A stretch of 64,000 bases of DNA from Sipunculus nudus (taxonomy: Eukaryota; Annelida; Sipuncula; Golfingiida; Sipunculidae), in contig CM049318.1 of NCBI GenBank assembly GCA_026874595.1, positions 50,744,750-50,808,749 on the forward strand, given 5' to 3'. Of the stretch, positions 20,498-63,450 are shown one piece after another. A program made the translations under genes and the position numbers. The notes beneath the pieces are model-generated. The model did no database searches. It had not been told where the DNA came from and saw only the letters and a program-made list of their open reading frames with translations. Within the stretch, counting starts at the first letter, position 1, and every line of letters starts with the position of its first letter.

Positions 20498-20598
20498 TAC
20501 CCTTTCAATCTTTAAAAATAATGAACCAGCATGGTCATTCATATATATATATATACAATCCTGGTTATGTTATATTTAGGTCTAGGCCAACACCAATG

Positions 20599-20843
20599 TT
20601 GAATTATCTATTGCAGGAAATCTGCATGAGAATTGACTAGGGACTATCTCTGGCAACAACACACTTTTATTTGTTTGCGGATGCATGATACAGATTACGG
20701 GATAAAAAGTCAGCAAAGTCTGATCTGATATATCCGTGAACTTTGATGCTCATCATTTTATCCCCGTCTAAAGCGGATTCTCAATCAACGTTCAGGTGCG
20801 ATAGAAATCTTTTTCGTAGAAAACTCTTCTCTATAATCCTACA

Positions 20844-20893
<50 letters not shown>

Positions 20894-20930
20894 CGTCTTA
20901 TCTCCTGCGTACTGGCAGCCGGCACAGACG
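20599..20930 (+). repeat. upstream copy of duplicated promoter region
   Basis: This ~332-bp unit is repeated at 20931-21231, directly in front of the secreted-protein gene. Shared landmarks run from CTATTGCAGGAAATCTGCA through GATGCATGATACAGAT and GCGATAGAAATCTTTTTCG to a TATA-rich tract and AACGTCTTATCTCCTG. The main difference is a longer TA run here (about 20849-20892). Confidence 0.85.
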
Positions 20931-21231
20931 TTGATTTATCTATTGCAGGAAATCTGCAGGAGAATTGACAAGGGGTTGTCTCTAGAAACAACGCACTTTT
21001 ATTTGTTTGAGGATGCATGATACAGATCACGGAAAGAAAAGTCATCAAAGTCTTATATGATAGATCCGTGAATATTGATGCTGATCATAATATTAACCTT
21101 GTCCATGGCGGATTCTCAATCAACTTTCACGTGCGATAGAAATCTTTTTCGTATAAACTCTTCTCTATAATCCTACAATTATAATATATATATAACGTCT
21201 TATCTCCTGGGTACTCGCAGCCGGCACAGAC
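20931..21231 (+). promoter_or_regulatory. proximal copy of duplicated region, probable promoter
   Basis: The second copy ends 45 bp before the ATG of the gene at 21277. It has a TATA-like tract at 21182-21194, suitably placed for a start site near 21220. The equivalent tract in the upstream copy could give a second start site. Promoter function is inferred from position and the TATA tract only. Confidence 0.5.
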
Positions 21232-21276: not shown

Positions 21277-24140
21277 ATGAGGGCCGCTTTTGCCGTTGTA
21301 GTCTTCGTAGCAGCAGCATTTGCGTTTCCATGTTATTGTGAACAAGACGGGCTGGTAAAAGCTAAAGACCTTGCTCATCATACCAAATTCCTAAAAGAGA
21401 GCGTCAACTCGGCGTCGAATAAAGAGATCAGCGTCTTTGACGATGAAGGACATACGAAAGAAATTACTGAGGCCGATGACGTCATTGACGATGCAGACGA
21501 GAAATTTGTCAATACCCTCGGTAGGTCAAATTAATTAATAAATAATTCGGATAAGATCAAGTTCCAGGACTCGGAGATGAAAGATTAGGTTAAAGTGAGA
21601 ACGACTCCCCCCCTAATTATGATTAAATAATAGCGCCCCCCTTCGCACACACATAAACACACATTTGGCCCATTATTAAAAAAGTAAAAAAGGAAGATAA
21701 AAAAAAAAATAAATAATGATACACTTTTGCGACATATTCTTACAACTTCATATAATTCAAATAGAGGGTTTTGTAACGTAAACCGTTAAGAAATATTGAT
21801 AATAAAATTAAATATATAAAACTAATAAATTTGTTTTAAAATAAAAAAAAAAAACGCAACCAGTTTTGGGAAATCGAGTATATAATCAGTTTAAAGATTA
21901 TGTGCATGTCAAACGTTCCCAGACAATAGTTTAGGTAATATTTACGGAAAAATGAAACGTTGACTACTGAGAAAGTTCGACAACCTTAAACACAAACCGC
22001 CCCCCACGTGTCTCAGTAGTGAAAATCAAGATCTCAGAACTTTAATTTCACATGACTTTTGTTTCTCCAAGCCTCATGCATGAAAAACCTTAAATCTGAT
22101 ATTTCAGACCTGGGGGTTGTAATAATAGTACGCCTTTTAAGTTATTTTTAAAGTCTCTTACCGTTGTTGCAAGTATCACAGTCAAAAGAATATATAAACG
22201 TACACCAATATTTTGATACTCACGGTTTTTGAGCTTTTATGCTGGGTAGGAAAACAAAGAATATGTTTAATATGTATTATATTACTCGTGCCTGTTGCTG
22301 CAATGATAGAACTTTATCACGGGACATTGTCACAGGCAGCAAATACGCAGCATAAAATTGAAGACCTCCAGGTGACAGCTCCACTATGCTCTGCATGTTG
22401 CAGGCCTTTATTCTATTCTATATTCAAAAAATAAATATTTGTATGACCTCAGGTTATTATGGTATGTGATTAGGTGTCTTGAAGACACAAATTTGCACGT
22501 ATGTCTGATGTCAAATGACATCCCCACTTAATGTTCGCGAGGGTTTCAAATTCATGATATTCGTTGAAATGATGACGTCTCATTTTCGTAATTTACATAT
22601 CATGCAAACAGTAACAAAGGTATCATAACCAAATTTCGCACTGTCTGTTGTAAAAGACGTGTTTTCATAGAGTTAAACAGTTCTGGTCAAACTGTCTAAC
22701 GAGGATATGTATGCCAAACGGAAATGACCGGAACTAACGTATCCTAGAATGTGCTGATGTTAATTGTAATCTGACAACATTAAAGAAAGCGAAGTATCCT
22801 TGTTAATTGGCAACTATAATTAATTGACAAAAAACTTGGTATTTCAACTACTAAATGAGAAATAGTCAATTGAATCTTGACCGTTTGCCCTCTACTATGA
22901 CCTTTGCCCCAAATGACCTAATCGTCTGTATGATGTTATACTTTAGTTATAATATAGTTCTGTAGAACTATAGGGTAGAAATGTGATTGTTCCTTCTTCA
23001 GTTTTTACAGATGGGGTTAAAATGGTGGTGTTACGTATCACAATATTGAAAAATATTGCTACCAAACTTGCAATAGGCCTCCTACATTGTAAATTTCGCA
23101 TGTCTGTTAAAATTTCAATTTCTAGTTCCAATGGTTTATGTGGAAACGTAAACGTGCTGAGTCACCTAGTTCATATTTTTATAAGCCCACTGTTATCCAT
23201 TTTTTTCTGTACCTCTTATAGGTTATAAGGAATTTGACATTATTGTAATCTGACATAGTGCTCTTTTTAATGGTATTAATATTTTCAGAATGTTCATTCC
23301 ATTCATAGGATATTTTAAGATTTTAAATAGTACGCTCAATTTAGCACTAAGTAACAGGAAGTCAATTTTTACAGGGCATATAATGAAAAATATAGGAACA
23401 ATTTTGTTTTGTTTTGTTTTCTCTATCATGTGGCTATCTACATTAAAACTAAAATATTAAATTTTGATTAAATTAAAATAAAAATTTTATTTATCAACAA
23501 GAAAAACACTGTATAGAAAAAAACTAAAAAAAAATTGAGATATTTTCATGTAGTTTAATATTAGTCTATTTACATGTGTTTACTTTTACTGGGGTATAAT
23601 TAGTTTACCTTTTAAAACCTTTTTTTTGTAAAATGATACAAATCTTTTTAAATGATTAAAAAGCTAAAAATCTAAGCCATCATAAAGAACACTACTTTTC
23701 CATTTTTATTTTAATCTCTATAAGAATATGCATGAATTGTTCTTTTTTCAGGAAACTGGATCCAGTTTCGTGAACCGTCTGCCCGACGTCGACGACGATG
23801 GGTTGGACTTGCTGTTCGCGGTGCAGGATGGGCCTTTAAAGCAGCACGTGGTCTGTTTCGGGGAGCGCATAGAACCGGAATCACCCGAAGTGGAAGCCGT
23901 ATCACTCGGCAGTACACCAAATCCGGATCCTACCGAACCGGACTCCGCGATTTCGCCCGACTCAAGCCCGACAATGTTAAACGGATCAGTGGTGGATACA
24001 CGAGGGGGTACACCGGCACGGTTGGGAGGTACAGGGTGACGGTCAGAAATGCAAGCAAGGGCACCGGAGGGAAGCGCGGACCACCCACTTTTGAGATACG
24101 AAGGGGGAACAGCGTCCGCAAATTTCGCTACAGAGGATGA
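21277..24140 (+). CDS. secreted basic protein with acidic pro-region (two exons)
   Basis: Join 21277-21520 with 23752-24140 (210 residues). The start is the ATG at 21277, inside a longer open frame. Exon 1 ends one base into a codon at a CTCG|GTAGGT donor; exon 2 follows a TCTTTTTTCAG acceptor, and the joined phase keeps the frame open to TGA at 24138. Residues 1-17 form a signal peptide (hydrophobic VVVFVAAAFAF core). Residues 22-92 form an acidic pro-region with 17 Asp/Glu, clustered at 55-75. Residues 93-97 are five arginines, a likely furin-type site. Residues 98-210 carry 28 Arg/Lys against 3 Asp/Glu, no cysteine, an amphipathic start (WVGLAVRGAGWAFKAARGL) and the C-terminus PPTFEIRRGNSVRKFRYRG. 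Architecture suggests a cationic host-defence or effector-like peptide released from an inhibitory pro-piece; that role is inference and I recognise no named family. Both exons are GC-richer than the 2.2-kb intron. Confidence 0.8.
21521..23751 (+). other. intron of the secreted-protein gene
   Basis: 2231 bp, GT...AG, AT-rich. A poly-A-rich stretch lies at 21690-21860. Short ORFs (22213-22434, 22983-23228) show nothing recognisable, and no nested element was seen. Confidence 0.7.
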
Positions 24141-24427: not shown

Positions 24428-24440
24428 AATAAAAAATAAA
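24428..24440 (+). terminator. possible poly(A) signals
   Basis: Two overlapping-range AATAAA motifs about 290 bp after the stop of the secreted-protein gene; the first plausible 3' end signals downstream. Such motifs are common in AT-rich DNA. Confidence 0.35.
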
Positions 24441-27965: not shown

Positions 27966-28223
27966 ACTGATTTTAAAAATAATACTGACAGGCATTTGAA
28001 ATGAATTGGTATTAACATTTTTCCCCAACACACTTAACTGAATAAGAATTGAAGTTTCATACAAATCTGGATTGTATCTAACTTGAAATGACAACTCTGA
28101 ACTGAACACAGGTTTGCTTGTAACAGTATCACAGGGGACCTATGCTACTTACTTGAAGACTAAGACTTGAAATAGTGTGTAACTGGGTTGACTGAATGAC
28201 ACATAGCTCAGTATTGGTCAACT
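27966..28223. other. intergenic DNA
   Basis: Nothing recognised. Confidence 0.5.
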
Positions 28224-28579
28224 AAGGTGATCAGACAATCTCACGATACATAAAGAGGTTCTAATTACATCCGAACAAATAGCTTGTTCTCCCGAGGCTT
28301 TCGGATAAACGACTCTCTACTGTACATGGTTGTACAGAAATTTGATCAACATTATATACACACATAAACATAGATACAGATGCAGCGTCCGTGACAAGAT
28401 ATATAAGGTGATCAGACAATCTCACGATACATAAAGAGGTTCTAATTACATCCGAACAAATAGCTTGTTCTCCCGAGGCTTTCGGATAAACGACTCTCTA
28501 CTGTACATGGTTGTACAGAAATTTGATCAACATTATATACACACATAAACATAGATACAGATGCAGCGTCTGTGACAAG

Positions 28580-28585
<6 letters not shown>
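28224..28585. repeat. 181-bp near-identical tandem duplication
   Basis: Copies 28224-28404 and 28405-28585 differ at a single site that I can see (C at 28390, T at 28571). The second copy runs into a TA microsatellite. Non-coding. Confidence 0.95.
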
Positions 28586-28611
<26 letters not shown>

Positions 28612-33914: not shown

Positions 33915-34249
33915 GTTATAGCCCCGTCGGTCGTCGCACAAAGCTAGTATTTGTATCCCACCGACCGGCACAAAAGATCTTAAAGTTCGTCAAAAAACAA
34001 CTATTTGTACCGTAAGATTTGATTACTCACTTTCCCTTGTTGTAAATTCAGGTATGACTTTGGTTATTCAAGATTATTTTTAACCTACCTGTCCATCACA
34101 CCATAAGGTCTGTCCATCATACTAAAAGGCACAAACAGAATTAGTCTATAACTCTTATAATTTATATATGTTATATCCGATATATATTTCTTATTCTCTG
34201 AACTGCAGGTGCGGATGGGGGTTGGGGATAACATCCCCTGTTGCTTAAG

Positions 34250-34593
34250 CGGCGGGGTTTAATAATCCCTACTGTACTGACGTGCCTGATTTTAATGCCT
34301 TCATTTGCCCGAATATCGGGAAGTTACTGTGTATGAAATGCAAGAAGAAGAACCAAGGATCGCACTGCTCGGGTACACATGACGGGACGGGTGATGAAAG
34401 TTTGCTTGGTACCAGCTGTAGTTCGAACCTGATACAGACGCCAGCTTTTACCTGCGACACCGCAACCAGAACAGCCACGTGCGATCACACCAAGGTGACC
34501 GGGGGATGTGAATGCTGCGACTACAAGATCAGAGGGTTTTATAGCTACCCCAAACTTATTAAAGCCATGCAGAACAAAACAGCCGTATCTTGA
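34250..34593 (+). CDS. cysteine-rich terminal exon, hypothetical extracellular protein
   Basis: An open frame of 113 codons from a possible acceptor (TTGCTTAAG|CG, 34249/34250) to TGA at 34591-34593. The frame is closed by a stop just upstream, so the start must be a splice junction. A stronger-looking acceptor (CTCTGAACTGCAG, ending 34208) would put the exon in other frames that close quickly. Counting from codon 34252, cysteines are at 8, 19, 27, 30, 39, 56, 68, 77, 86, 88 and 89: eleven in 113 residues, with a terminal GGCECCDYK motif and a basic tail. That points to a disulfide-rich extracellular protein. The patch is GC-richer than its flanks, and an AATAAA at 34597-34602 follows directly. 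No family recognised; upstream exons not found. It may be a pseudogene fragment. Confidence 0.45.
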
Positions 34594-47300: not shown

Positions 47301-47712
47301 AATATACCAAACTTACTTTTGTTTAAATTTAAGACTTATTAACTTATAAAACTACCGAAATGGCCGGGGTGTTGCAGTCACAAAGCTTTGCTGGTCTCCT
47401 GGAAGTAGTCAGAGCCCGTGACCATGAAATGTATATAATTATGCTCCCCAGGCCCAAAAGTGATTATGAATATTCTATGGTTGCCACATATCTTTTGCTA
47501 CATGTTAACTTTTAACATTTTTAAGTTTTATAGTGTTTTGTGAGGGTTATATTTTCACGATCTCACTGAGTATATCCATCATTTTATGGATAATAAGTAT
47601 GTGCACAAAATCTTAAAATTTGACCAGGGATACCTTAAGGGAATAAATAATTAGTGGAATTGTTTGTTTATTATCAGATAATGTAAAAGATATGATCATA
47701 TTTTTAAAGTAT
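47301..47712. other. intergenic DNA
   Basis: Nothing recognised. Confidence 0.5.
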
Positions 47713-48165
47713 GGTTGACCTACTTTTGACCGTTGTACGGCTCCTTAACTTAGAAAATTTCATGAAAAATAGAAATTTTCATGACAAATACACATGTACG
47801 GACTTTTTTTCGCAATGCCTGCAGATATTGGCCTGATTTTTGGTGTGTATGCAGATATTGACTAGTTACAGATCGAGTTTGCGTTTCGTCCTGGTTGACC
47901 CACTTTTGACCGTTTTACGGCTCCTTAACATAGAAAATTTCATGAAAATATAAATTTTCATGACAAATACACATGTACAGACTTTTGTTCGCAATGCCTG
48001 CAGATATTGGCCTGATTTTTGGTGTGTGGGCTGATAATGACCAGTTACAGATCGAGTTCACGTTTCGTCCTGGTTGACCTACTTTTGATTGTTTTACGGC
48101 TCCTAAACATAGAAAATTTCATGAAAAATATAAATTTTCATGACAAATGTACATGTACAGCCGTT
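47713..48165. repeat. ~180-bp tandem array, left part
   Basis: GGTTGACCYACTTTTGACC starts at 47713, 47893 and 48072 (period 179-180). Units share GAAAATTTCATGAAAA, ACATGTACRGACTTTT, GCAATGCCTGCAGATATTGG and CAGATCGAGTT. Confidence 0.9.
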
Positions 48166-49539: not shown

Positions 49540-50115
49540 GAAGTGACATACGTGATATTTTTTTTCTGGGTTATTATCGCGTTCCCTCGCGATCTTTTCG
49601 CGTTCCCTCGCGATCTTTTCGCGTTCCCTCGCGATAATATCGCATTCCCTCGCGATCTTTTCGCGTTCCCTCGCGATAATATCGCGTTCCCTCGCGATCT
49701 TTTCGCGTTCCCTCGCGATCTTTTCGCGTTCCCTCGCGATCTTTTCGCGTTCCCTCGCGATCTTTTTCGCGTTCCCTCGCGATCTTTTTCGCGTTCCCTC
49801 GCGATAATATCGCGTTCCCTCGCGATCTTTTCGCGTTCCCTCGCGATCTTTTCGCGTTCCCTCGCGATCTTTTTCGCGTTCCCTCGCGATCTTTTTCGCG
49901 TTCCCTCGCGATCTTTTCGCGTTCCATGGAGATCTGTTCGGCTTGGCTGGTTCCCTGCTCCTCTATATCTGGCATACATGCAAATAAATGGACGCGGGAA
50001 CCAGTACAACAGTTTACTTTACCTCGTTCCTTGTGTCTTTAACACCACTACGCTCCAGTAAGATATACGCTCGATGTCAGGTCAACACAACGATGCTTGT
50101 ATAAGATTAGATTAG
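49540..50115 (+). mobile_element. element with 20-bp CGCG minisatellite core, copy A
   Basis: Core 49575-49925: about 17 units of TCGCGTTCCCTCGCGATCTT (some units with an extra T or with GATAATA). Flanks: GTGACATACG and TTTTTTTTCTGGGTT on the left, GGTTCCCTGCTCC to GATGTCAGGT on the right. Core and both flanks recur, inverted, at 52898-53403, so this is a mobile or duplicated unit rather than a local satellite. Left flank + tandem core + right flank recalls the Helitron-related 'pearl/CvA'-type elements of bivalves; that comparison is inference. ORFs of up to 188 codons in several frames are artefacts. Confidence 0.75.
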
Positions 50116-52897: not shown

Positions 52898-53403
52898 TAA
52901 TCTCTCTTATTCAAGTATCGCTTTGTTAACCTGACATCGGGTGTATATCTAAGAGGTGGAGCATGGTGGTGTTAAATACACAGAACGAGACACAGATAAC
53001 TGTTGTTCTGGTTCCTGCGTCCACTTTTTTGTAAGCTAGATGTTGCAAGCTAGATATAGGGGAGCAGGGAACCAGCCTAGTGATCATTTGTAAGATCGCG
53101 AGGGAACGCGAAAAGATCGCGAGGGAACGCGAAAAGATCGCGAGGGAACGCGAAAAGATCGCGAGGGAACGCGAAAAGATCGCGAGGGAACGCGATATTA
53201 TCGCGAGGGAACGCGAAAAGATCGCGAGGGAACGCGAAAAGATCGCGAGGGAACGCGAAATTATCGCGAGGGAACGCGAAAAGATCGCGAGGGAACGCGA
53301 AAAGATCGCGAGGGAACGCAAAAAGATCGCGAGGGAACGCGAAAAGATCGCCAGGGAACGCGATAAAAACCCAGAAAAAAAATATCGCGTATGTCACTTT
53401 AGG
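52898..53403 (-). mobile_element. element with 20-bp CGCG minisatellite core, copy B (inverted)
   Basis: The reverse complement aligns with copy A through right flank (52898-53090), core (53092-53365, about 14 units) and left flank (53366-53403). The two copies lie 2.8 kb apart and head in opposite directions. Confidence 0.75.
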
Positions 53404-53667: not shown

Positions 53668-53990
53668 TATCTCGTTCCCACGCGATAATTATCGCGTGGC
53701 CACAAGATACTAACGCGTGGGAACGAGATAATTATCGCGTGGCCACGAGATACTAACGCGTGGGAACGAGATAATTATCGCATGGCCACGAGATACTAAC
53801 GCGTGGGAACGAGATAATTATCACGTGGCCACGAGATACTAACGTGTGGGAACAAGATAATTATCGCGTGGCCACGAGATACTAACGCGTGGGAACGAGA
53901 TAATTATCGCGTGGCCACGAGATACTAACGCGTGGCCACGAGATACTAACGCGTGGGAACGAGATACTATCTCGTGGGAACGAGATAAAA
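53668..53990. repeat. 43-bp palindrome-rich minisatellite
   Basis: TAACGCG starts at 53711, 53754, 53797, 53840, 53883 and 53926 (period exactly 43). Each unit holds ACGCGTGGGAACGAG, the palindrome GCGATAATTATCGC and CGTGGCCACGAGATAC. The last units are rearranged. Confidence 0.9.
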
Positions 53991-54059: not shown

Positions 54060-55560
54060 CTCTTGCGAGTTTACTATAGGCTAACATCTCTTTTTAGATA
54101 TGCGCTTATCTTGTCTCTGTTTGCGTCATAGCACGAATCACGTATGATATGGAACGGCCACACTGCACAAGTACCGGGCCTATACCACTCTGGCTGACAC
54201 TCAATAGTAAGTTCTTTAGATGGCTCATAATAAGCTAGTATAGGGGTCATAGAGACATGTGATTTTATTTCTTGCATAGCCTTTTGCTATATTTCTGTCT
54301 AGCAACACACGCTGCACTGTCGGGCTAGCGCCCTCAAGGCTTCCATTGTTTTGGAAAGCATCGCGCCAAGTAATTGAGTGTTTCTTGTTGCCGCTGCACC
54401 TCTTGTGCATTTATTGGTTGGGTTTTGCATCTGTAGGATGGCTTAGATTTTCTCATTGTCTGATTTAAGCCTTTCACTTGAAACACAGTGACCAAGAAAG
54501 GAGATTTCACTTGTACGAAACTGGCATTTACCTTTGATCAAAGGATTACCCTTCTCCTTACATCTTTGTAATGGGGCTCTCAGTTTCTGGTTATGGTCCT
54601 AGGTAGCTTGTTCTAAATCATCTCCAGATAAAAAATAATGATGTCATCTGTAACACAAATTACTCGACTTAGACCTTGAAGAGCCATATTGAGCCGTTTT
54701 GAAATATTTCGGAGCTAACATTTAGTCCGAATGGTAGTCAGAGCCACCTGAATCGACCGAATTCGACACAAGTTGTAATCCGGCTACTTTTATCATCCAG
54801 TAGAGAGTGCCAGTATCCATTCTGTAAGTCTACTTTTGTGAACATTTTTTCCTTGGCAAATTGTGGCAACACATCATCTATTACAGGTAATGGGTAAATT
54901 TCTCTTTTGAGAGCTTTGTTCAATGTTCGAGTGTCCAAGCCGATCCTGAGATCATTGTTCCTTTTAACACAAATGGTCATCCGGGAAACCCGGTCCGTCA
55001 ACCATTTCATCATGATTCTGTTTTGATTTGACTTCTAAATCAATTGGCACACCTTTTGTTTTCACTGATCTTTAGGCTGCTTCTGAATTTAGAGTAAAGT
55101 GAATTTACCAGGAAGGGTTCCTAGTGTTTTCTGGTCTCCTGTTTTGACATCATCATAGTCTGTAGTGATGTCCTGTCTCGCTACACTGTGCAGCAAGTGA
55201 AAGTTATCATGGTTCACTCTGATCACATTCATGGCTTCAGCAGCCTTTCTGTTTATTAGGGGAGTTAGATCTTCCAATACTTCTTGGAATTCGACATTGT
55301 ATTTTTTCTTTCCTTTTTTTTAGGGGGGGGGGGGGGGGTTCTCACTGTGAGTCTCTTCTTGCCCGAAGGCTTTGAGGTAACTTTTAGGTGTTTATCAAAC
55401 TTACGAATGATGGTAACATGATCTTGTTTGTTCTCTTGGGGGGGGGGGGGGGGGTTGTCATCTGGTCCTGCAGGCGCAAACACAAGACTGTTATATATTT
55501 TAATACCTACAGTCCCAGCACACTTGCACATTGGTATTCTTTATCCCTTATATCCAGTTC
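54060..55560 (-). mobile_element. Ty3/Gypsy pol fossil
   Basis: On the minus strand, in order: a linker region with a TLGTLPGKFTL segment (near 55110), reverse transcriptase (55013-54738; RTLNKALKREIYPLP, FTKVDLQNGYWH), and RNase H (54240-54075; TPILAYYEPSKELTIEC). The order is that of a normal Ty3/Gypsy pol. Broken in at least five places, integrase not seen, no LTRs identified. Confidence 0.8.
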
Positions 55561-61300: not shown

Positions 61301-63450
61301 TTTTTTTGGCTTTAAAAATGGTGTGTCACCGACAGATTCAAGAATTACTTTACGGCTTTCAGTTTACAGTCTTTACTGACTATCTTCTGACATATATTCT
61401 CGTAAGTGCTCGACTGGATGCAACTTGACAACGATGGGTGGCAGACCTGGCGAACTATGACTTTAGTATTCAGTACCGGGCTGGAAAGCATAACACCGAA
61501 GCAGATGCACTATCTCAAAAATCTACAGCAAAGAACGACCAGGGACGAGGTTAGAAAATCATACCTGAAACGCAATTAAAGCTTTATGTGAAGAAGGTAT
61601 GTCTTCCCATGACATTGTATCTTGTTTAAATGTTTATCCAGAATCTAGCTATTCATGAACTTGTCTTGTACATCTCTCAAACTCGACGGTCAAGATGTTA
61701 GAATTGCTAAATTACAAGATTTCACCTTACTGCCTTTGATCCTTCATTTAAGAGACCACTGTCGGATTCAAACAGAAAATTTGAATACTGAACAACTAAC
61801 TTTTTAAAAAAGCGGACATTTCTAATATTAAAAGATAACCTACTTTTCCGTAAAAGACTAAACTATGGGGAGGAAACTTACCAGTTAGTTGTGTCAACTA
61901 GCCTTCGACCATTGGATTTCTCAGGAGTTCATGATAAAAAAGGACATCTTGGTCGAGATAGGAGTTTCGAATTAGCCCGAGAAAGAGAAGGAAAGGTTTT
62001 AGTAACATCATCAACGCCAATGGAGTTTTTCCGAAATACTATCTTAGTCTAGGTCCCGCAAACGGTGGTACCGAGCATATATTGGTTATGAAAGATAACT
62101 ATACTAGCTATGCCCTGGCCCTTCCTTGCAAAACAACCAAAGGAAACCAACAGCTAAACTGCTATATGATACCTTCGTCAATCATTATGGATTCCCTATG
62201 AAAATTCACGGTGATCAAGGAGCACAATTTGAGTCTCGAATTATCAGATAATTATAAAAATTAACTGGTATTAAGAAGGCACACATTGTTCCTTTTCATC
62301 CCAAAGGAAACCCTGTGGAACGATTCGACAGGACTCTGTTAGCATGTGAGGAGCATTTGACCAGATCAGAAGAAAAACTGGATAGACCTTGTCGGATCTT
62401 TTACCAATGCATAAATCTGGACGCGAAATGATGCAACGAGTTATTTACCGCTTTTTCTTTAGTTTGGTTGACACCCACACCTGCCAATAGACCTAAGTTT
62501 GGGACATATAGAGTCTTCTGATATAAAGGCGTATCAGACATACGTGGCTGATTTAAAGAATCGACAATCTTTTGCTTACGAAACTGCGCAACGTATTACC
62601 ACAGCAAATAAGCGTCGACATAAATCATTATATGACCGTCGCTGCCACAGTACTGTCTTAATGCCTAGGGACAAAGTCCTGGCTCGAAATGTTGGTTTAA
62701 AAGGTAGGCAGAAACTTGCTAATAGGTTGAAAGAAACAATCTATAAAGTCCAGGATCAACCAAGGGTAGATAGCCCTGTTTATGTTGTTTTCCCACTTGA
62801 TGATAGTGAACTTCCAAGGACACTTCATAGAATTTGTTACGCTCTATTAACAGGTTACCACTGGATGCTAACCGAAAAGCATTATCTCGCCGAGCGTAAC
62901 CCAATGTTATCCGTACCCTTGGTCGCCATATTAGCAATAGTACTATTGTAGATTCTTCTGATGAATCCTCGGATGTCTTTATTCAGTACCGGATCATCCG
63001 AATCCGCATGATAGACCTGTCTCCCAAAATTCAGGAGAAACTGTTATCTTGTAGGAGGACCAGCAGCTAATCGACCACGACGAAACTGGAGATTCTCTGG
63101 ATAGCGGTTCAAACGGAAGGAGAATTGATTAGGCCAGCACTGAGGAAAGTGAAGTTGACCATTATCTTGAGATAAGTATAACGCCGGAATCTGCTCCAGT
63201 GGAAATTCTGTTAGTCGAATTCGAGCCCATGTCTTCATTAGATGTCGATATTCCTCAGTATAGTGTTCCTGAAATACCTTTGGAGGCTGTACCATCTGAA
63301 CCTGAGCCAAGTGAGCCTGAATAAAATGTATTTCCTCAGGAAAACATTCCGTCAGTAAATCTGTCTGTTCACGAGACTTCGGATGACATTCCACAAATTT
63401 TAGGTTGGCCACAATGTCAAAGGAGCCCTCCTGTCTACCTACGTTCAGAT
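58379..63450 (+). mobile_element. Ty3/Gypsy fossil, gag to integrase
   Basis: All main parts are in the normal order on the + strand: gag-like region (58380-59160, with SVRGTAASVLFSMPDGSSL), protease (DTGSQFC near 59826), reverse transcriptase (60160-60960; ECLLYLEDIVVFS is the YLDD-type box), RNase H (61070-61530; VFTDYLLTY, YRAGKHNTEADALS), integrase (61850-62960; VHDKKGHLG zinc-binding part, core near 62080-62400, C-terminal domain 62500-62960) and a Glu/Pro-rich tail. Nearly full length but broken by well over a dozen interruptions in all frames, so old and inactive. The small ORFs are pieces of it. Confidence 0.85.

Follow-up and report, generated by a model that had tools for sequence, protein, structure and literature searches.

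A candidate secreted zymogen of Sipunculus nudus with a core related to bacterial polymorphic toxin domains

What kind of protein is built from a probable signal peptide, an acidic pro-region, a run of five arginines, and a strongly basic domain without cysteines, and where did that domain come from? This is the question raised by a two-exon gene of the sipunculid annelid Sipunculus nudus, located in a stretch of 64,000 nucleotides (GenBank assembly GCA_026874595.1, contig CM049318.1, positions 50,744,750 to 50,808,749 of the forward strand) that we refer to as the window. The window gene sits on a 70.9-Mb contig (C13) of the 1.43-Gb assembly, and an earlier note on this DNA assigned its product to a family of defence or effector peptides. 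On the strength of profile comparisons, the core of about 80 residues at the end of the protein is homologous to the C-terminal toxin domains of bacterial Rhs, CdiA-type, and HINT polymorphic toxins. We consider it rather likely that the gene carries a horizontally acquired interbacterial toxin domain that was turned into a secreted zymogen, probably an RNase of the BECR (Barnase-EndoU-Colicin-RelE) type.

The window gene and its paralogs

All parts of the gene lie on the plus strand. Exon 1 (21277-21520) encodes the signal peptide (called by eye at approximately residues 1 to 22) and the greater part of the acidic pro-region and ends in phase 1, as read from the joined frame and from the first exons of the paralogs. 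Exon 2 (23752-24140, with the stop codon at 24138-24140) encodes the end of the pro-region, the polybasic site, and the mature domain. The two are joined in phase across the 21520/23752 junction into a precursor of 210 residues, and the phase 1 GT-AG intron between them (21521-23751) has the donor G/GTAGGT and the acceptor TTTTTTCAG/GAA. With GC contents of 0.455 and 0.573 versus 0.309 for the intron, the exons are indeed the GC-richer pieces that the earlier note had joined. The pro-region (residues 23 to 92) contains 16 acidic (D+E) and 8 basic (K+R) residues; the 17 acidic residues reported before are obtained when the count starts at residue 21. It is followed by RRRRR at residues 93 to 97 (23784-23798), which we presume to be a furin-type cleavage site. 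Recounting residues 98 to 210 gave the same values as before, 28 basic and 3 acidic residues and no cysteine, and the computed isoelectric point is 12.00. This mature part consists of a basic, partly hydrophobic N-terminal segment (residues 98 to 128; 23799-23891) and the core (residues 129 to 210; 23892-24137), placed by profile searches and alignment. The net charge is -9 for the pro-region and +25 for the mature part.

A tblastn search of the genome with exon 2 gave 10 matches: exon 2 itself, eight copies on an 80.9-Mb contig (C8), which lie between 4.66 and 4.83 Mb and are 37 to 62% identical to it, and one copy on a further contig (C74). Exon 1, searched in its own genome, matched only itself. 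Upstream of the C8 copies we scanned for a first exon with a hydrophobic start, a phase 1 donor, and no excess of basic over acidic residues. Joined models were retained only where exon 2 begins with x-x-W, a rule of our own. A long acidic exon was found for six of the seven copies scanned; P4796 gave none, and the fragment P4806 was outside the scan. One spurious candidate each was also obtained for P4740 and for the C74 control. Signal, phase, acidity, and x-x-W are partly selected for by these criteria, whereas neither the degree of acidity, at 18 to 33 D+E, nor the similarity of the first exons to each other was a criterion.

Four of the C8 models are intact two-exon genes, namely P4664 (239 amino acids; net charges of the pro-region and mature part, -21 and +28), P4740 (260 amino acids; -5 and +21), P4791 (246 amino acids; -27 and +22), and P4800 (246 amino acids; -27 and +23). 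In all five intact models, the window gene included, a pro-region of net charge -5 to -27 precedes a mature part of +21 to +28, and at the position of the polybasic site all four C8 models have R-Q-K-R. The mature part contains two cysteines in P4740 and none in the other four models, in which there is no defensin-type pattern of paired cysteines. Because the four C8 paralogs repeat the two-exon layout together with a similar signal, an acidic pro-region, and the R-Q-K-R site, the window gene is confirmed, as far as sequence comparison goes, to be real beyond chance. The paralogs also uphold one part of the earlier proposal, a secreted effector family with an acidic pro-piece and a polybasic site; the other part, an ordinary cationic host-defence peptide, is not the best description in view of the toxin homology given below.

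The C8 pairs that can be measured are under purifying selection. In the three pairs with a dS below 1, the dN/dS ratio (NG86) of the mature part is 0.07 to 0.28. For P4664 compared to P4791 and P4800 it is 0.27 to 0.28 in the mature part and 0.30 to 0.39 in the pre- and pro-regions, and for P4791 compared to P4800 it is 0.07 (a value that rests on about six changes) and 0.28, respectively.

Relationship of the core to bacterial toxins

A tblastn search of plasmids with a blended core of the paralogs gave 10 records, seven of which span at least 80% of the query, with E values of 2e-3 to 2. Five of these seven are annotated, all of them as Rhs, hemagglutinin-repeat, or DUF6531 proteins. The remaining three matches (H8 to H10; E values of 5 to 9) comprise one annotated ABC-three component protein and two without a feature. 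We examined five of the 10 loci, leaving out H8 to H10 as well as H2 and H6, which have the same species and scores as H1 and H5, and in all five the domain forms the C-terminal end of the protein. Two Neisseria gonorrhoeae records filed as plasmids but of chromosome size (2.17 Mb) also hold a relative of the toxin domain (H13 and H14). Four of the plasmid domains, used to scan bacterial genomes, led to two more members, from Prochloron didemni and from a Lachnospiraceae metagenome-assembled genome (MAG), in the latter case located behind a PT-HINT domain. The domain is rare, as it was found in 3 of 299 genomes of the phylum of the Lachnospiraceae MAG and in 2 of 386 genomes of the phylum of Prochloron (query genomes included), one of the latter being a fragment with a stop. 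In all seven bacterial loci a small open reading frame (ORF) begins no more than about 25 bases from the stop codon of the toxin. The seven ORFs align weakly (mean column identity, 32%) and share a C-terminal stretch like H-Y-x-I-x-T; from their position, they are putative immunity genes.

Comparison of profiles links both groups. An hhalign comparison of six animal with seven bacterial domains gave a probability of 99.0 and a P value of 5.6e-18. In a set of 2058 ORFs, a profile built from bacterial sequences only found the ORF of the window with an E value of 1.1e-11 and the C8 genes with E values of 3.5e-15 to 8.9e-6 (one fragment, 0.012), and a profile built from animal sequences only recovered all seven of the loci L020 to L026 (E values of 1.8e-13 to 2.7e-5). 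The Prochloron toxin domain, searched against the whole assembly, gave 16 matches, the top four of which are C8 paralogs with E values of 2.2e-4 to 7.4e-4. Animal and bacterial domains have V-R-x-x-S, P-T-[LF]-E-I, and R-Y in common, and the full set of R, S, P-T, and R-Y is present in 13 of 16 aligned rows, including the window copy. The incomplete rows are those of P4784, in which S and T are missing, of Streptococcus, which lacks P, and of Prochloron, where F replaces Y. The earlier note had mentioned, without relying on it, small secreted domains with a C terminus of the form P-T-x-E-I ... K-x-R-Y, and this pattern fits the bacterial domains found here. Because the domain is spread over several bacterial phyla, the transfer would have gone from bacteria to the animal.

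The window protein matched no model of Pfam, NCBIfam, PHROGs, or PADLOC at its cut-off, and the animal and bacterial members gave few matches in Pfam and NCBIfam, with E values of 0.0047 or weaker, far below the curated cut-offs. No relatives were present among 4 and 53 pattern matches in viral contigs, and a search of phages gave one match (E value of 5) over half of the query.

Fold, activity, and possible roles

As described in passages of Zhang et al. (2012; PMC3482391), BECR RNases combine a helix with a meander of four strands, the fourth of which has a conserved serine or threonine. The P-T-[LF]-E-I stretch would fit this residue, and the core is probably a metal-independent RNase of this fold. 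The same source describes Ntox7 as a predicted BECR fold with a 'DGx + xhR, N motif' and with FilH, RHS, and HINT partners, and its passage on Ntox7 lists no eukaryotes. Ntox7 is a type that we compare by description only; most of the bacterial members resemble it in having D-G-x-x-x-x-V-R and P-x-N-V-K, but the spacing of the motif is off by one in the bacterial rows and D-G is absent from the animal rows. The W-E-aromatic C terminus of Imm8 was, by eye, absent from all seven neighboring ORFs, which also matched no Pfam model at E values up to 1; immunity partners of Ntox7 other than Imm8 are listed as well (PMC3482391). In view of this difference in spacing and of the missing Imm8 hallmark, we did not assign the bacterial members to Ntox7.

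We propose that the signal peptide takes the proprotein into the secretory pathway, where the acidic pro-region would mask the cationic mature domain by charge until a protease of the furin type cleaves the chain behind the polybasic site. Once released, the domain, of bacterial polymorphic-toxin descent, would act on nucleic acid; a metal-independent RNase of the BECR type is its most likely identity, and microbes or parasites would be its targets. Bacterial toxin producers are protected by an immunity protein of their own, separate from the toxin. A toxin without an immunity protein needs safekeeping, and the acidic pro-region together with the furin-type site offers a simple, testable answer; by analogy, the acidic pro-piece is a candidate safeguard that may take the place of the immunity protein. 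A more specific version, which we put forward only tentatively, is that of a domesticated zymogen in which the pro-domain replaces a lost immunity protein and which is used on bacteria, including the associates of the animal with their many variants of the toxin family.

Several observations weigh against a horizontally acquired toxin RNase kept as a zymogen. The window exon itself matched nothing in plasmids, and the single Prochloron query ranks the window copy only sixth of the 16 matches (E value of 0.079), so that profiles and paralogs carry the case for homology of this copy. The profile tests are not fully independent, because an animal-derived query led to five of the seven bacterial sequences in the first place; the other two were reached via bacterial patterns. 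With regard to selection, pairs that include P4740 reach a mature dN/dS of 0.42 to 0.58, at a dS above 1, and for the window copy the ratio is undefined by saturation. Some of the C8 copies are decaying: exon 2 of P4826 is interrupted by a stop, a stop also occurs in the fragment P4806, P4796 is truncated, and in P4784 the polybasic site is missing, as are the conserved S and T. As to the fold, there was no convincing match in the PDB (best phmmer E values, 1.4 and 0.28), where the strand part searched as a profile reached an E value of 0.088, and for the animal proteins a crude Chou-Fasman prediction gives partial support to the strands and poor support to the helix. Profile matches in the PDB with lower E values were to designed TPR or PPR repeats, and we rejected them as they were matched by a short helix region.

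It is possible, although we find it doubtful, that the bacterial toxin fold was kept without its enzyme activity and that the protein is a cationic antimicrobial that binds membranes or nucleic acids and is neutralized by the acidic pro-piece. The charge of the mature parts is in line with this, and a dead polymorphic-toxin domain has been used by animals before, the GHH domain of teneurins (PMC3482391, in part). On the other hand, the R, S, P-T, and R-Y residues are complete in four of the five animal rows examined, with the window copy among them, and the mature dN/dS is low in the three measurable pairs. It is also conceivable, if unlikely, that the toxin is aimed at eukaryotic cells, either those of parasites or predators or as a component of venom or egg defence. 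Microbial toxins have been recruited in this way in centipede venoms (outlined in PMC7864903), as has cdtB in gall midges (outlined in PMC8455502). There was no sequence sign of entry into eukaryotic cells in a search limited to an N-terminal helix test. An amphipathic N-terminal helix for membrane insertion was rejected, as the best segment of P4791 was no better than shuffled sequences (0.531), and the best segment of the window copy (0.028) comprises mature residues 28 to 45, which reach into the core.

Precursors of cationic antimicrobial peptides often have acidic pro-pieces and polybasic sites, and no curated family covers the window protein. An ordinary lineage-specific peptide precursor with a chance likeness to bacterial toxins is nevertheless very improbable given the hhalign P value, the profile matches in both directions, and the location of the matches at the C termini of Rhs, CdiA, and HINT toxins, and we rejected a plain antimicrobial peptide on the basis of this homology.

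Bacteria in the assembly, other features, and known systems

The assembly also contains contigs that look bacterial and carry the same toxin family. C74, of 1.2 Mb, has an open-frame coverage (the share of a stretch in stop-free frames of at least 100 codons) of 0.84 and 0.93 in two stretches, compared to 0.19 for the window and 0.34 to 0.45 for three stretches of C8. Rhs C-terminal cassettes are arrayed on it; the toxin domain is complete in two of them, and two others contain its later part. Further copies are present on C61, C66, C69 (twice), and C77; together with C74 these hold the loci L015, L034, L036, and L041 to L045. Of the 16 assembly matches, 13 were read as sequence, and those on C62, C89, and C91 are known by match only. 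The cassettes carry many divergent variants of the toxin domain, and two matches lie in open frames of more than 3,300 amino acids. Because these contigs carry the family in Rhs arrays, related toxins may be in use both in the animal and in bacteria associated with it.

In a first tree (18 rows, without P4800, P4796, P4806, L031, L033, the second L025 copy, and the fourth C74 copy), a weakly supported branch (63/87) has all the animal genes on one side. A second tree (21 rows, without the same rows and also without P4826 and the third C74 copy) supports the animal branch with 84/96 and places it in a group (88/89) with Streptococcus, Enterococcus, Lactococcus, the Lachnospiraceae MAG, and two further relatives. 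The copies from the bacteria of the assembly form a separate clade (99/99). We did not retain these bacteria as the direct donor, in view of this clade of their own; a joint clade with the animal genes is not favored, although not rejected either (p-AU, 0.186). That the animal copies are themselves contamination, as the presence of the same toxin on bacterial-looking contigs might suggest, is hardly credible, as the window and C8 copies lie on contigs of 70.9 and 80.9 Mb, are split by introns, have low open-frame coverage around them, and stay on one side of the branch in both trees.

Around the gene, a tandem duplication lies upstream (20598-20860 and 20930-21194, plus strand; 86.8% identity over 266 aligned positions). 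The second copy ends about 80 bases 5' of the ATG, and the promoter or the 5' untranslated region may sit in it. Downstream, a polyadenylation-like AATAAA (24428-24433, plus strand; a string match only) is followed by five more such strings up to 25133. Elsewhere in the window, one 21-bp minisatellite unit occurs in opposite orientations at 49577-49940 (17 copies) and 53092-53363 (13 copies) and is open in several frames, and there are tandem repeats with periods of 181 bp (28223-28586), 179 bp (47712-48160), and 43 bp (53680-53988). Open frames at 34249-34593 (cysteine rich, 114 amino acids), 54738-55034, and 62472-62951 had no Pfam match at an E value of 0.01; the last two, by their motifs, look to us like fragments of retroelements.

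The transfer of polymorphic-toxin domains to animals is already known for at least 14 domains (PMC3482391, in part). No report of the present domain in an animal was found among the titles and abstract openings searched, which cover part of the literature. The animal proteins share the core of about 80 residues, with a conserved G, F, V-R-x-x-S, P-T-L-E-I, and K-[IF]-R-[YF], with polymorphic toxins of Bradyrhizobium, Streptococcus, Duffyella, Enterococcus, Lactococcus, Prochloron, and the Lachnospiraceae MAG. They differ from these in that the domain is part of a short proprotein with a signal peptide, an acidic pro-region, a polybasic site, and an intron, and the large carrier upstream of the domain (Rhs or FilH repeats or HINT) is absent from the animal models, which are 210 to 260 residues long. 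The tae/dae amidases are said to be antibacterial genes that moved from bacteria to animals, and a phage lysozyme was transferred to bivalves (outlined in PMC7379824). These are likewise antibacterial domains of prokaryotic origin in animal genomes, but they are cell-wall enzymes, whereas the domain described here belongs to a C-terminal toxin family and has an acidic pro-domain. Defensins and the eosinophil major basic protein are cationic antimicrobials whose precursors have acidic pro-pieces. The animal proprotein follows the same charge-balanced logic; it had no sequence relation to them in Pfam or PDB searches, and its mature domain is toxin related. If our explanation is true, this zymogen would show a route from an interbacterial weapon to an animal effector.
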